A stretch of 64,000 bases of DNA from Caballeronia sp. NK8 (GTDB lineage Bacteria > Pseudomonadota > Gammaproteobacteria > Burkholderiales > Burkholderiaceae), in the NCBI RefSeq assembly GCF_018408855.1, contig NZ_AP024325.1, positions 930,001 to 994,000 of the forward strand, read 5' to 3'. Shown here one piece after another: positions 2,786-53,060 of the stretch (position 1 is its first letter; each line of letters starts with the position of its first letter). Below the pieces are notes generated by a model that was given only the letters and a program-made list of their open reading frames with translations, had not been told where the DNA came from and did not search any database. A program made the translations under genes and the position numbers.

Positions 2786-3865
2786 TCAGGCTTGCGTCGC
2801 CGCGGGCATCGGCCGCTCGACGTGATACGACGGATCGCGCGTCTGCCGCACGAGCGCCGGAATGATTTCCGCATATGCCGCGATCGTGCTCGCATAGGGC
2901 GGCGGCATGTCGTGCTTCACCGTTTCGTGAAGACGCGGCAGCGCGTAGTACGGGACCATCGGAAACATGTGATGCTCGACGTGATAGTTCATGTTCAGAT
3001 AAAGAAACCGGAACACGGGATTCATCATCACGGTTCGGCAATTCTTGCGATGATCGAGCACATTCTCGGGCATGCCCGCATGCTGCGTCAGACCGAAGAA
3101 AAGATAGAGCCATGCGCCGTACAGGCTCGGCAGGCCGATATAGAGCAGCGGCAAGATCGAATGGAACACGAAACACGCGGCGATCACGACGGCGTAGATC
3201 GCAAGCCACGCGCGCGCCTCCCGAACCACCTTGGGCCATTCCGACTCGGGCACGTAAGTCTTTTCTTCTTCGCCGATATGCCCGAACGCCGACGAGATGA
3301 TCTTCGGCACTTCGCCCGCGGCATGCTTCAATGCGAAGACATTCAGCGCGAGGCTCAGCCAGTCCGTGGGCAACGGCACGGCGATTTCGCGATCGCGTCC
3401 GACGACGAGCGTGTCCGTATGATGACGCGCGTGACTCCAGCGCCAGATGGTCGGGCGGCGGAACACCTGAAACGACGCCACCTGATAAAGCGCCTTGTTC
3501 ATCCACGATGTTTTGAACGCGGTGCCGTGACCGCTCTCGTGCCAGCGTGAATCGGCCGGACCGCAATAGAGCGCGCCGTAGACAAGGAAGGCGGGAATCG
3601 CCCACAGCGAATGCGACTGCCATGCGAACCATGCAAGCACGCCGCTCGCGATGATCGCCGCATACCAGAGCAGCGTGTCGCGGATCGCGCGCGCGTCGCC
3701 GCGTTGCATCAGGCTTTTCATGACGGGACGCGGCACGGCGCACTTGTACCAGTCGGCGTTGACGAGACCCGCTGCTTGCGCGCGCTCGCCTGCACCGCCG
3801 ATCAATCCGTAATCGCGATGACGATCCCGCGCGCCAGCGCCGTCGAATTGCTTCGAATCCATCAT
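2786..3865 (-). CDS. Fatty-acid-desaturase-family di-iron oxygenase, MocD-like
   Basis: Membrane di-iron enzyme of 359 aa. All three histidine boxes are present: HESGH at 109-113, HARHH at 145-149 and HVEHH at 295-299. Hydrophobic segments lie near 68-102 and 219-260. The family includes lipid desaturases, hydroxylases and the rhizopine oxygenase MocD. Linkage to a Rieske ferredoxin and an SDR, and control by a LacI-type regulator whose relatives sense sugars or polyols, favours a small polar substrate over a membrane lipid. First gene of the minus operon. Two adjacent ATGs occur at 3865 and 3862; GAGGGG is spaced better for the second. Function as an O-demethylase or hydroxylase is inference. 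Confidence 0.88.
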   Translation of the reverse strand: MMDSKQFDGAGARDRHRDYGLIGGAGERAQAAGLVNADWYKCAVPRPVMKSLMQRGDARAIRDTLLWYAAIIASGVLAWFAWQSHSLWAIPAFLVYGALYCGPADSRWHESGHGTAFKTSWMNKALYQVASFQVFRRPTIWRWSHARHHTDTLVVGRDREIAVPLPTDWLSLALNVFALKHAAGEVPKIISSAFGHIGEEEKTYVPESEWPKVVREARAWLAIYAVVIAACFVFHSILPLLYIGLPSLYGAWLYLFFGLTQHAGMPENVLDHRKNCRTVMMNPVFRFLYLNMNYHVEHHMFPMVPYYALPRLHETVKHDMPPPYASTIAAYAEIIPALVRQTRDPSYHVERPMPAATQA

Positions 3866-3877
3866 GTCCCCTCAGCC

Positions 3878-3898
3878 AATGATTGAAATTACATCATT
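3878..3898. promoter_or_regulatory. Candidate operator: AATGAT-N9-ATCATT palindrome
   Basis: An interrupted palindrome lies 13 bp upstream of the desaturase start, in the shared intergenic region with the divergent LacI regulator. The octamer TTACATCA overlaps it at 3889-3896 and occurs again in the same orientation at 4000-4007 just before the regulator gene. A LacI-family dimer bound at both places could repress both genes, possibly by looping. Seen in sequence; binding is inferred. Confidence 0.45.
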
Positions 3899-4010
3899 CA
3901 TCATTACTGGGTCGATGATAGGAGCGTCACACTGACGGCGCAATCTTCACGCGCATTTGCTATCTTTAAGCATCATCGCGCGAATCGAAAAGCCATCATT
4001 TACATCAAAT

Positions 4011-49140: not shown

Positions 49141-49659
49141 TCACGGCGCATCGGCGGCATCGTGATCATTTGCAAGCGCAACTATATTGACGATGCCCTT
49201 GCGCGTCATCTTCGTGTAGGGGCAGAAACGTTCGGTGTTGCGCACGAGTTCTTCCGCCACCGTGCGCTCGACGCCAGGCATTTGAACGCGCGTGTGCGCG
49301 GTGAGCACGAAGAGGCCATCCATCGGATCGCGGCTGAATTCCACCGTGACGGCCACACTGGCGCCTTCCACCGCGATGCCCGCGCGCGCCGCCAGCAACA
49401 CCAGCGCGCCATGAAAGCACGCGGCACAACCCGCCGCGAACAACTGCTCCGGGTTGGTGCCGCCGCCTGGTCCGCCGAGCGCCTCCGGCATGCGCAAGTT
49501 CAGCTCGAGGTTGCCGTCGTCGGAGCGGACCACGCCCGAGGCGCGGCCATGGCCCGCGTCGCCGCCCGTGACGGTGACGGTCGTCCTGTAGAGCGGTTGC
49601 ACGTCCTGCCCTTGATACTTGTCGAGCAGACTGACGGGCGGCGGATCGATCGGCGCCAT
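49141..49659 (-). CDS. Ohr/OsmC family organic hydroperoxide resistance protein
   Basis: Thiol peroxidase of 172 aa. The two redox cysteines lie in AAGCAACFHGAL (the ACFHGAL Cys) and RFCPYTKMTR, as in Ohr proteins that reduce organic hydroperoxides with lipoylated partners. It is about 30 residues longer than typical Ohr because of the N-terminal IDPPPVSLLDKYQGQ segment. Upstream, ten bases away, ends a 20-codon relic of an SDR gene. Start ATG at 49659; an alternative TTG at 49677 is possible. Lies at the downstream end of the ECF41 cluster. Confidence 0.9.
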   Translation of the reverse strand: MAPIDPPPVSLLDKYQGQDVQPLYRTTVTVTGGDAGHGRASGVVRSDDGNLELNLRMPEALGGPGGGTNPEQLFAAGCAACFHGALVLLAARAGIAVEGASVAVTVEFSRDPMDGLFVLTAHTRVQMPGVERTVAEELVRNTERFCPYTKMTRKGIVNIVALANDHDAADAP

Positions 49660-49669
49660 GGACGGTCTC

Positions 49670-49732
49670 TTATGCAAGCGATGACACCTTGCCGCCGATA
49701 AGCCCGCTGCCGCCAGTCACTGCGATCTTCAT
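49670..49732 (-). pseudogene. 5' remnant of an NAD(P)-binding epimerase/SDR gene
   Basis: Twenty codons reading MKIAVTGGSGLIGGKVSSLA then stop. This is the exact N-terminal Rossmann signature (GGxGLIG) of an atypical SDR or epimerase, with an intact ribosome site AAAGGAACC, but the remaining 200 or more codons are missing. The next gene, ohr, starts 10 bases after its stop. Most likely an internal deletion joined the start of an SDR gene to ohr. It could now serve as a leader peptide. Confidence 0.7.
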
Positions 49733-49844
49733 GGTGGTTCCTTTCGACACTGCCCGAAACACGTGTCGTACGCGATGCATCGTAGACGTGCGCGCATGCA
49801 TCCGGTAGCGCCGCCACAGGAAGCGCCGTGTTGCCTTCAGTGCA

Positions 49845-50852
49845 TCAATCGGCGGGCACGAGCGGCAACGCACGCGCGTTCGTGATGGTCGTCGTCAGGC
49901 AATGCAGATCGAGTGCACGCGTGTGCTCCGTCATGTAATCGACGAATACACGCACGCGCGCGGGCAGTTGCTTGCGGCTCAGATAGCAAAGATAGTGGCC
50001 GCCGTCGTCGGGCGCGTGTTGCGCGAGACACATGACGAGGCGCCCGGCCTTGAGCGGATCGCACACGAGATACGCGGGCAGTTGCGCGATGCCCTGCCCG
50101 TCGAGCACCGCCTGGAGCATCAGGTCGATGTCGTTGAAGGTCTGCCGCGCGGCGGGCGAGCGCTTGTGTGCGAGACCGTCGACCTTGAACTCCCAGTCGG
50201 CGATGCGTCCCGTCGAGGTGCGGAAGTTGATGCAGCGATGCTTCTCCAGATCATCGACATGGCGCGGCAATCCATACGCGCACACATACTGCGGCGACGC
50301 GCACACGACTCTCTGCATCGGAATCAACTGCTTCGCGACGACTTCGCTGTCTTCCATCTGGCCGTCGCGAAACGCGACATCGACGCGCTCGGCGGTGAAA
50401 TCGCACGGACGATCGCTGAGCAGCAATTCCAGCGCGACGTCGGGATAACGCGCATTGAAGCCGGATAACAGCGGCGCCACGACCTTGCGGCCGAAGCCCG
50501 GCGCCGAGGCGATGCGCAAGTGCCCGCGCGGCGGCCCGTTGCGCAACTCGCGCATGTCTTCGAGCGCCTGCACGATGCGCTCCACGCCCGGCTGGCAATT
50601 CTTGTAGAAGAGTTCGCCTTCGCGCGTGAGTGACGTGCGGCGCGTGGTGCGAAGAAAGAGACGCGCGTCGAGCTGTGCTTCGAGCTTCTGCACGTTGCGG
50701 CTGACGGCGGAACGGCCGATTCCCAGGCGATCGCTCGCTTTCGCGAAACTGCCTTCGTTGGCGACGGCCAGAAATGAAACGACGCCCGCGTAGCTCGTCA
50801 CGAAGCTGTACGCGAGCGAATTGTCGGAATGGAACGCAAGATCCAGGGGCAT
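49845..50852 (-). CDS. LysR family transcriptional regulator, possible ECF41 target
   Basis: Regulator of 335 aa. The winged helix lies near residues 22-80 (VVSFLAVANEGSFAKASDRLG and VSRNVQKLEA), preceded by an unusually long 20-residue N-terminus; a GTG at 50801 is an alternative start giving a standard length. The ligand domain resembles the group that includes DsdC/GcvA-like regulators of redox enzymes. The sequence at 50886-50912 just upstream matches the ECF41 promoter consensus. It points toward the relic SDR and ohr genes. Confidence 0.9.
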   Translation of the reverse strand: MPLDLAFHSDNSLAYSFVTSYAGVVSFLAVANEGSFAKASDRLGIGRSAVSRNVQKLEAQLDARLFLRTTRRTSLTREGELFYKNCQPGVERIVQALEDMRELRNGPPRGHLRIASAPGFGRKVVAPLLSGFNARYPDVALELLLSDRPCDFTAERVDVAFRDGQMEDSEVVAKQLIPMQRVVCASPQYVCAYGLPRHVDDLEKHRCINFRTSTGRIADWEFKVDGLAHKRSPAARQTFNDIDLMLQAVLDGQGIAQLPAYLVCDPLKAGRLVMCLAQHAPDDGGHYLCYLSRKQLPARVRVFVDYMTEHTRALDLHCLTTTITNARALPLVPAD

Positions 50853-50885: not shown

Positions 50886-50912
50886 GACGTTCGCGCGCCG
50901 CGCTTTGTGACA
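50886..50912 (-). promoter_or_regulatory. Candidate ECF41 promoter TGTCACA-N16-CGTC
   Basis: On the minus strand TGTCACA (50912-50906) and CGTC (50889-50886) are separated by exactly 16 bases. As I recall it, the published ECF41 consensus is TGTCACA-N16-CGTC. The predicted start would be near 50879, about 27 bases before the LysR start codon. The cognate-type sigma gene is 1.1 kb upstream on the same strand. Confidence 0.7.
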
Positions 50913-50927
50913 CGCCATGCCGGATTT

Positions 50928-51335
50928 TTATTTCACCGGCGTCAGAACCGGGCTGCCCTTGTCCTTCAGAAGCAGCACGATGAACTTCGCGCGCTTCGTG
51001 TTGCTGGCGTTGCGGCCCACCGTGTGGATATCGTCAGGGCCTTCATAAAACGTGTCGCCGGGCTTGAGCGTCACGGCCTTGCCGCCCTTGACCTGCATGA
51101 TGATCGTGCCTTCGAGCACATACAGGAAAGCGTGTGCATCGTGACGATGCACCGGATCCACCGCGCCCGGCGGATATTCCACGCTGATCATCAGCTCTTC
51201 CTTGCCCGGATATTCGGGCAGCGGCCTGGTCATCAGTTCCTTGACGATCGCCTCGGGCGCTGCCTGCGCGGTGTTCGCGACGAACGCCGCGCATCCGACG
51301 ACGAGCGCCAGCCCCACGCGTTTGATGCTATGCAT
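50928..51335 (-). CDS. Secreted cupin protein
   Basis: Exported protein of 135 aa: signal peptide to the TAQAA cut, then one cupin domain with VDPVHRHDAHAFLYVLEG (metal ligands H-x-H plus E) and KPGDTFYEGPDDIHTV supplying the second motif. GGGAG precedes the ATG at 51335. Second gene after the sigma factor, 38 bases downstream of the AhpD-like gene. Probably a metal-dependent quencher or dioxygenase-like protein in the periplasm; role unknown. Confidence 0.88.
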   Translation of the reverse strand: MHSIKRVGLALVVGCAAFVANTAQAAPEAIVKELMTRPLPEYPGKEELMISVEYPPGAVDPVHRHDAHAFLYVLEGTIIMQVKGGKAVTLKPGDTFYEGPDDIHTVGRNASNTKRAKFIVLLLKDKGSPVLTPVK

Positions 51336-51373
51336 GATCGGTTCTCCCATGATCGAATGACGGCGCGTACGCG

Positions 51374-51853
51374 TTACGACAGATTCGCCTTGTCGAGGCC
51401 GAAGGCCTTGTCGGACGAGCCCGGCACCGTCTGGAACGCGACATTCGCGCGGTTCCATCCGTTGATCGCCATGATGGCGTAGGTCAGGTCGGAGAGTTCC
51501 TTCTCCGAGAACTGCTCGCGCACCCGTCCATAGAGTTCGTCGGGCACGCCGTGCTCGGGCAAGCGGGTCAGCACTTCGGTCCAGGCCAGCGCGGCACGTT
51601 CGCGCGGCGAGAACAGCGTCGATTCACGCCAGATCGCGACATGGTGCGTGCGCAACTCGCGCTCGCCGTGAATCTTCGCTTCCTTCACGTGCATGTCGAC
51701 GCAGAAGCCGCAACCGTTCATCTGCGATGCGCGCAGCGTCACGAGATCGCGGGTCGTCTGCTCGATCGAGCACTCCTTCAACGCCTGGCTGAATTCATAG
51801 AACTTCTTGAACAGCTCGGGCGATTGTTGAACGTAGTTGATTCGCTGCGTCAT
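51374..51853 (-). CDS. AhpD/carboxymuconolactone-decarboxylase family protein
   Basis: Protein of 159 aa of the AhpD-like group. It has the redox pair in NGCGFCVDMHVKEA (C-x2-C-x3-H), which marks alkylhydroperoxidase activity rather than true decarboxylation. GGAGCCC precedes the ATG at 51853; a frame to 51970 adds 39 residues. It follows the ECF41 sigma gene by 155 bases. A gene of this family next to ECF41 is the usual arrangement. Likely part of a peroxide-type stress response. Confidence 0.92.
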   Translation of the reverse strand: MTQRINYVQQSPELFKKFYEFSQALKECSIEQTTRDLVTLRASQMNGCGFCVDMHVKEAKIHGERELRTHHVAIWRESTLFSPRERAALAWTEVLTRLPEHGVPDELYGRVREQFSEKELSDLTYAIMAINGWNRANVAFQTVPGSSDKAFGLDKANLS

Positions 51854-52008
51854 GATGGGCTCCATGCCTGGTTGAAAATGCCTGCCGATGTTTCGCGCTG
51901 GTTCGCGTTCGGCATGGATGTCATCGTAAATTCGCGCGGCTTCGCCCGGTAGACGCGCGAACGTACGCACGCTGTTGCCTCGCGTGCATCAATCGCAACT
52001 GCAGTGCA

Positions 52009-52890
52009 TCACGCGCCGCCGCGAAGGGCCGCGATGCGTTCCAGCTTGTCGGGATTGCGTTGAACCTGTATGCGCACGATGCGTTCGTCTTCGATGTCGT
52101 ACGTCTGCGCGGATTCGAGCTTGCCGTCGATGAAGCGCAGCAGCGCCCATTGCTCGTTGAGCATGACGAGTTCGAGCCGCACGCCCGCGCCATGGCGCAG
52201 GTGCGCCGCGTAGAAAAGCTGCGCGATGCGCTTCCCGCCGACGAGCGGTTTCGGAAAGCTCTGCACGCGTCCGCCGCCATCGCCGACGAGCGTGGCGTCG
52301 TCCGCGAGCATCGCGTGGATCGCGGCGAAATCGCCGTGTTCGATCGCATGCGCGAAGGCGTGCAACACGCGCCGATGCAGCTCGCGCGGCACCGAACGGC
52401 GCGGACGTTCCTCGCGCAACTGCGCTTTTGCACGGCTCACGAGTTGACGGCACGCGGCCTCCGTCTTGCCGATGATCCCCGCGATCTCGGGATAATCCGC
52501 GTCGAACACCTCGCGCAGCAGGAAGGCTGCGCGCGCCTCGGGCGTCAGGCGTTCGAGCAGCAGCAGAAACGCGACGGATACATCGTCCGCGCGCTCGGTG
52601 ACTTCTTCCGGCGTCGCGGGCGGCTCGGTGATCTGCGGCTCGGGCAGCCAGATGCCCGCGTAGTGCTCGCGCTGCAGTTTCGCGGCGCGCAGACGGTCGA
52701 TCGAATGACGCGTCGTGACGGCGACGAGCCACGCCTCCGCGTTCTCGATGGCTTCGCGCGCCGCAGCATGCCAGCGCAGCCACACGTCCTGCACGATGTC
52801 CTCGGCTTCCGCGACCGAGCCGAGCATGCGATACGCGATGCCCTGCAAGCGCGGACGCAGGCGGTCGAATTCGCGTGTGGCGTCATCCAT
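52009..52890 (-). CDS. ECF41-type (SigJ) RNA polymerase sigma factor with SnoaL-like extension
   Basis: Sigma factor of 293 aa. Region 2 lies at 8-75 (GIAYRMLGSVAEAEDIVQDV), region 4 at about 100-165, and a SnoaL/NTF2-like C-terminal domain follows to the end. The three ECF41 hallmarks are present: WLPEP at 81-85, DGGGR at 204-208 and NPDKL at 279-283. In this group the extension, not an anti-sigma factor, adjusts activity; none is encoded here. GAGGA lies 9 bases before the ATG at 52890; a Met at 52923 lacks a site. Probably controls the adjacent AhpD/cupin/LysR genes. Confidence 0.94.
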   Translation of the reverse strand: MDDATREFDRLRPRLQGIAYRMLGSVAEAEDIVQDVWLRWHAAAREAIENAEAWLVAVTTRHSIDRLRAAKLQREHYAGIWLPEPQITEPPATPEEVTERADDVSVAFLLLLERLTPEARAAFLLREVFDADYPEIAGIIGKTEAACRQLVSRAKAQLREERPRRSVPRELHRRVLHAFAHAIEHGDFAAIHAMLADDATLVGDGGGRVQSFPKPLVGGKRIAQLFYAAHLRHGAGVRLELVMLNEQWALLRFIDGKLESAQTYDIEDERIVRIQVQRNPDKLERIAALRGGA

Positions 52891-53060
52891 GAAAACGAAT
52901 CCTCGTTCGTAGGCGGAAGCCATCGATTTGAAAGCTACGTTGAAGGTGATCGTATATTACGCGCGCGCGTATGAGTGGATGATCCGGTGACGCAGTAAAG
53001 ATCTGAGAATAACGCGGCCAATTTTGACCATCATTTCGAAAAGTGCTATTACGACGGGGC

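Follow-up and report, generated by a model that had tools for sequence, protein, structure and literature searches.

A predicted sigma-to-LysR relay at an ECF41 locus of Caballeronia sp. NK8

A stretch of 64,000 nucleotides from Caballeronia sp. NK8 (the window; contig NZ_AP024325.1, positions 930,001 to 994,000) encodes an ECF41 sigma factor next to a carboxymuconolactone decarboxylase (CMD) gene, and an ECF41-type promoter in front of a LysR gene. This arrangement raises the question of whether the sigma factor acts on a transcription factor, and what then controls the CMD gene. The genome measures 9.2 Mb in 7 contigs. Judged on sigma protein identity, its closest named relatives are Caballeronia pedi (95%) and C. 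jiangsuensis (93%). The minus-strand gene order is sigma, CMD, cupin, TGTCACA-N16-CGTC, LysR, SDR remnant and ohr, with the following features.

52009..52923, minus strand: ECF41 sigma gene, 304 aa as the longest ORF, alternative start at 52890; sigma2, sigma4 and a C-terminal SnoaL/NTF2-like extension
51975..51993, minus strand: proposed LysR-binding box ATTGATGCACGCGAGGCAA upstream of CMD, from pattern match and conservation
51923..51952, minus strand: sigma70-like promoter CTACCG-N18-TACGAT upstream of CMD, from its spacings, kept in the profile
51374..51853, minus strand: CMD/AhpD-like gene, translation MTQRINYVQQ..., CxxC motif CGFC (Pfam PF02627, 9.7e-21; TIGR00778)
50928..51335, minus strand: cupin-domain gene with a signal-peptide-like N-terminus (Pfam PF07883, 3e-16); start picked from the translation
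50886..50912, minus strand: ECF41-type promoter TGTCACA-N16-CGTC of the LysR gene, from exact match and conservation
49845..50852, minus strand: LysR-type regulator gene, 335 aa (Pfam PF00126, PF03466), proposed direct target of the sigma factor
49831..49849, minus strand: second proposed LysR-binding box ATTGATGCACTGAAGGCAA, overlapping the LysR 3' end, before the SDR remnant and ohr
49779..49808, minus strand: sigma70-like promoter CTACCG-N18-TACGAT of the SDR remnant and ohr, with spacings equal to those at CMD
49670..49732, minus strand: NmrA/epimerase-type SDR remnant of 20 codons (MKIAVTGGSGLIGGKVSSLA and stop); the gene is whole in related genomes
49141..49659, minus strand: Ohr/OsmC-family peroxidase gene (TIGR03561, 116.2 bits, cut-off 88.85; Pfam OsmC); start picked by reading the translation

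The sigma factor and the ECF41-type site before the LysR gene

The sigma factor is an ordinary ECF41 member. Its protein scores 371.8 bits against the NCBIfam model TIGR02957 SigX4 (cut-off 323.25) and 305.7 against PRK09636 SigJ (cut-off 271), matches the Pfam r2 and r4 domains, and aligns over residues 16-256 to SigJ of PDB 5xe7 (2.7e-44). The two models and the alignment support the sigma2, sigma4 and roughly 100-residue SnoaL-like extension that define the group, with no SnoaL domain above the Pfam cut-off and weak DUF4440 only. DGGGR is a conserved C-terminal motif of ECF41 sigma factors. The translation contains it together with YAGIWLPEP in the linker and NPDKL, so the three hallmarks that the initial annotation had named are all present. 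NPDKL is given as a conserved C-terminal ECF41 motif in the accessible part of PMC7730460. The adjacent CMD gene is of the kind that neighbours ECF41 genes, and none of the nine neighbourhood proteins scanned belongs to an anti-sigma family. It is the single ECF41-like gene found in the genome; the next two matches (E 3.9e-7 and 6.2e-6) cover core domains only. The start proposed earlier at 52890 (MDDATREF...) is as possible as the 52923 start of the longest ORF.

The window contains one exact TGTCACA-N16-CGTC, at 50886-50912 on the minus strand. It lies about 1.1 kb past the sigma stop on the same strand, as had been described, and upstream of LysR, although the distance to the LysR ATG at 50852 is 33 bases and not the 34 first reported. 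That description had also omitted the CMD (51374-51853) and cupin (50928-51335) genes between the sigma gene and the site. With spacers of 14-18 the chance expectation in the window is a mean of 0.22, and 19 of 100 shuffles contain at least one match, so the window-level match alone proves nothing.

Comparison across loci is more informative. It covered 179 loci with 146 distinct sigma sequences, 95 of which have a LysR counted as orthologous (at least 50% identical and within 6 kb of sigma), and each LysR was searched from 230 nt upstream to 45 nt inside its start. The site is exact in 72/95 of these loci and present with at most one mismatch in 90/95, from Caballeronia to Rhodanobacter, while 300 permuted motifs gave means of 0.00 (exact) and 0.18 (at most one mismatch), with a maximum of 6. 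Across the set of 18 closest loci, which includes the window, GTCACA and AACGTCT are retained, and most of the spacer and flanks varies. The T following CGTC, which took no part in finding the 90 sites, carries 2.0 bits over them, compared with 0.2-1.1 bits for the spacer.

The site also stays with LysR when the locus is rearranged. It is kept where CMD and cupin are absent between sigma and LysR (e.g. L090, L092, L097), where SDR-CMD is reversed (L212 and L213 of Achromobacter, L124, L127), and where LysR diverges from CMD-cupin-sigma (L207-L210 of Rhodanobacter). Five of the 95 LysR genes have no site within 230 nt (L123, L205, L206, L216, L217); another LysR copy in L205 has a two-mismatch site, and in L216 and L217 an exact site lies farther out, about 300 nt upstream. 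The LysR of L183, beyond the 6-kb limit and counted apart, has none. Within the window, CMD, cupin, ohr and sigma have no sigma site within one mismatch. The proposal that LysR is a sigma target is thus backed by comparative evidence at the level of the sigma group, the promoter and the target gene.

Two features of the LysR 5' region were observed in the Caballeronia-type alignment. No clear Shine-Dalgarno sequence precedes the LysR ATG. The leader at 50879-50856 (AGAGCCACTACG) shows strong conservation among Caballeronia-type loci and may contain a further control element.

A genome-wide scan for the pattern, the check suggested by the initial annotation, gives 5 exact matches (1 for the reversed-pattern control), of which the LysR site alone is in a clear promoter position. 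Of the remaining four, one (L001) is intergenic and the others fall within ORFs or antisense to them. These four and one CGTCACA site, all in or antisense to ORFs or facing a gene 3' end, were rejected as further sigma targets in the genome. The intergenic site (L001 1501-1527; G000:C2:775641-775667) faces the 3' end of a sensor-kinase-like gene and is identical in the closest relative, G004; it is either a chance match or an antisense or small-RNA promoter. An exact match occurs in 33/41 genomes and is therefore not rare, so pattern counts alone decide nothing.

Several sites were seen at other genes. In other genomes of the genus, a second sigma lineage, about 40% identical, has an exact TGTCACA-N16-CGTC directly upstream of its own sigma gene (L028, G002:C76:44682-44708; L030, G008:C212:25659-25685). 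A gene near sigma or CMD in L088 (ORF 2974-3972 relative to sigma), L091, L106 and L110 has an exact or one-mismatch ECF41 site and encodes 332-343 aa where read (MHLGKSYxLxEFLxWTRRQ...). This gene, with a presumably bestrophin-like product, is a likely additional sigma target in some Burkholderiaceae. An apparent target in L134 was set aside, being a 325-aa ORF without recognised kin.

Putative LysR boxes at the CMD and SDR/ohr genes

The regulator has the N-terminal HTH_1 and substrate-binding domains of a LysR protein in Pfam, and its nearest solved sequences are 3hhg (best, E 1.3e-42), which we take to be CrgA-like, and 3mz1. The alignment of close relatives shows a conserved block in the sigma-CMD gap, and a copy with identical fixed letters lies between LysR and the SDR remnant. 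The block contains a 19-bp LysR-type box, ATTGATGC-N6-GGCAA, found upstream of both CMD and the SDR remnant/ohr pair. At both places the box end is 22 nt from CTACCG, CTACCG is 18 nt from TACGAT, and the putative box centre falls at about -66 from the estimated start. The box holds TGC-N7-GCA, a T-N11-A dyad, and such dyads are typical of LysR sites. LysR regulators bind such a dyad near -65 of their targets, and candidate dyads lie here at about -66 of both estimated starts.

The box belongs closely to this locus in the host genome. The form ATTGATGC-N6-RGCAA has exactly two matches there, both in the locus, and the reversed control has none. The second step proposed earlier, from LysR to ohr or other genes, is likewise backed by comparative evidence, with the box upstream of CMD and of the SDR remnant/ohr pair and no other match in the genome. 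With at most two mismatches the CMD box is found in 18/18 Caballeronia-type loci (window included) and in 46/62 held-out loci, that is, loci not used to define the box; the SDR box is found in 37/50 held-out loci. Permuted motifs give means of 0.08 (CMD) and 0.05 (SDR) in held-out loci, and no box occurs on the coding strand before the LysR genes (0/18 and 0/77). The architecture of box, CTACCG and TACGAT arises separately in the CMD and SDR profiles. The 16/80 CMD genes without a box at this threshold each have a version with 3-4 mismatches 110-168 nt upstream. In the 13 searched genomes with the locus, 18/21 exact boxes are inside it; the 28 other searched genomes (of 41) have 16 exact matches, so an exact box match alone is not specific.

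The SDR gene has a varied fate. In L036 the gene is complete and hits the NAD_binding_10, NmrA and Epimerase models. Nine of the 18 closest loci have a complete or almost complete NmrA-type SDR between LysR and ohr, and in eight it is missing or truncated, with unlike pieces remaining; L039 is unreadable. The losses include the window (49670-49732, minus strand), L038, L040, L041, L044, L045, L046 and L075. The box stays while the SDR goes, which reads as repeated loss of one gene of the predicted regulon.

A proposed exchange of control and relay

Sigma site and box exclude each other at the CMD and SDR genes. The comparison took in 125 loci that contain CMD or SDR (L184 omitted because its contig ends; L183 counted as LysR-present, with LysR at +6352). 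Loci with LysR have the sigma site at CMD or SDR in 0/93 cases and the box in 81/93, and loci without LysR have the sigma site in 26/32 and the box in 0/32. For CMD, the sigma site is found in 0/80 LysR loci versus 19/25 LysR-less loci. Six LysR-less loci have neither (L103, L104, L109, L223, L229, L232); L103, L104 and L109 keep a close CMD without LysR, with no site or box at CMD and the site at sigma. Sigma sites at both sigma and LysR are seen in L051 and L052, which are possible rewiring intermediates.

These counts are to be read with the phylogeny in mind. In a quick sigma tree, all 95 LysR loci fall in one group of 111 rows (SH-aLRT 96), with 16 LysR-less loci within it and 34 outside. 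Because the LysR state changes only about two times on this tree, the 125 loci are not independent cases, and an independent-pairs test yields 1-2 pairs, too few to reach significance. The window CMD shares only 33-43% identity with most CMD genes of LysR-less loci, which are distant relatives and not clear orthologues, so gene replacement may account for some of the contrast. CMD and similar genes had been cited as the usual ECF41 targets, which stands; it had not been seen that a CMD adjoins this very sigma gene without a sigma site. On this comparative evidence, the usual targets appear to have been handed over to a LysR relay, and the sigma factor does not appear to have acquired a new, unrelated target.

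The probable reading is a rewired ECF41 two-step detoxification circuit, in which sigma would act on LysR, and LysR on CMD-cupin and SDR-ohr. Under the control of its fused SnoaL-like domain, the ECF41 sigma factor would bring RNA polymerase to the TGTCACA-N16-CGTC promoter, and LysR would be made. LysR, probably with its own co-inducer, would bind the boxes centred at about -66 and activate the sigma70-type promoters of CMD-cupin and SDR/ohr. Other ECF41 factors directly control genes of the CMD and NmrA/epimerase-type SDR kinds, and the lineage would thereby have put LysR between the sigma factor and the classical ECF41 targets. Genes, sites, spacings, conservation and the mutual exclusion of sigma site and box are read directly; from them we infer that the sigma factor would use the site and that LysR would bind the box and activate. 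The outcome would be defence against organic hydroperoxides or electrophiles. Such compounds are pointed to because the products are an AhpD-like CxxC protein, a cupin, an NmrA-type SDR and an Ohr peroxidase, a role read from protein families only.

Other readings of the site and the boxes were weighed. Of the 5 matches in the 9.2-Mb genome, four have no clear meaning as promoters, as chance would produce, but retention before LysR in 90/95 loci against a permuted mean of 0.18 leaves chance a negligible probability and, as far as comparison goes, rules it out as the origin of the site. It is unlikely, though worth weighing, that the site serves a LysR-SDR-(ohr) operon in which the SDR, an epimerase-type gene of the classical ECF41 kind, is the real target and LysR only the first gene. 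SDR and ohr do lie downstream of LysR in many loci, and in Kribbella and Acidobacteriaceae an SDR relative itself has a one-mismatch site. However, the site stays before LysR where the SDR is lost (the window, L038, L040, L044-L046) and where it is on the opposite strand (L124, L127, L128, L130, L212, L213), and a separate conserved box and promoter for SDR/ohr directly follow LysR.

The sigma factor could also act on LysR while the boxes belong to another regulator, with LysR acting elsewhere or repressing. LysR boxes look alike, and the assignment here is a prediction from sequence. This is nevertheless quite improbable, given that in the loci compared the box at CMD or SDR accompanies LysR (81/93) and is absent without it (0/32), that Rhodanobacter L207-L210 have a two-mismatch box in the divergent gap between LysR and CMD, and that both boxes of the genome are local.

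The sigma-to-LysR relay would place two cytosolic ligand-sensing regulators in series. It can tentatively, and with some doubt, be extended to a coincidence circuit, in which expression of CMD, SDR and ohr would require both the SnoaL-like domain and the LysR effector domain to be engaged, and which would close into a positive loop in some lineages. In Rhodanobacter L207-L210, the sigma site (at most one mismatch) is at LysR and at sigma, and the LysR box precedes CMD-cupin-sigma; in L124, L125, L127 and L129 the box is before sigma. These arrangements suggest feedback onto sigma in both sets of loci. In L216 and L217 (Stenotrophomonas) and L206 (Luteibacter), the order LysR-SDR-ohr is found with boxes at SDR, no sigma site is within 230 nt of LysR, and sigma follows CMD-cupin in L206 and L217, where CMD was found. 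The hierarchy is possibly reversed in these three loci, with LysR above sigma.

Relation to known ECF41 systems

The ECF41 factors of Bacillus licheniformis and Rhodobacter sphaeroides recognise TGTCACA/CGTC with a spacer of 16 +/- 1, and CMD, oxidoreductase or epimerase genes are the only targets detected, according to the accessible text of Wecke et al. 2012 (PMC3426412). The same text describes control of other members by their own C-terminal domain. The window resembles these systems, as far as that text describes them, in sigma architecture, WLPEP, TGTCACA-N16-CGTC, CMD/epimerase-type neighbours and lack of an anti-sigma gene. It differs in that the direct targets described there are here without a sigma site, while LysR has one. 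Likewise, in the available portion of PMC6180224, Sinorhizobium meliloti RpoE9 is an ECF41 factor that, as here, goes with a promoter of the TGTCACA type and has CMD as a neighbour, but this CMD is its single direct target, whereas LysR carries the sigma site in the window. LysR is absent from the main text of both papers as available. The regulatory unit of the window departs from the defined ECF41 unit, since the sigma site is absent at CMD and at sigma.

Two further sources touch on the names involved. In the part of PMC7730460 at hand, 'LysR' in an ECF41 context means OxyR. PMC2194791 covers Burkholderia sigma genes, but the SigJ in its accessible text is a group 1 factor and not the window sigma, and LysR is absent from that text. 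Searches covering few subscription papers, with most of these and the recent ECF reclassifications outside them, found no earlier ECF41-LysR-CMD relay; an earlier mention is possible.

Mycobacterium tuberculosis SigJ (PDB 5xe7) shares the fused SnoaL-like C-terminal domain (2.7e-44), and to our knowledge it has no LysR relay. We also know of no dependence of 3hhg-type LysR regulators on an ECF sigma factor.

The inducing signal of ECF41 is called unknown in the accessible text of PMC3426412, and the targets given there and in that of PMC6180224 are neighbouring CMD-type genes. A lineage-wide LysR relay would add a second sensor, with a co-inducer that could be searched for directly. With two boxes in the genome, it would define a small, closed regulon. 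It would also be an example of rewiring: target genes of unchanged kind would move from control by a sigma factor to control by a transcription factor.
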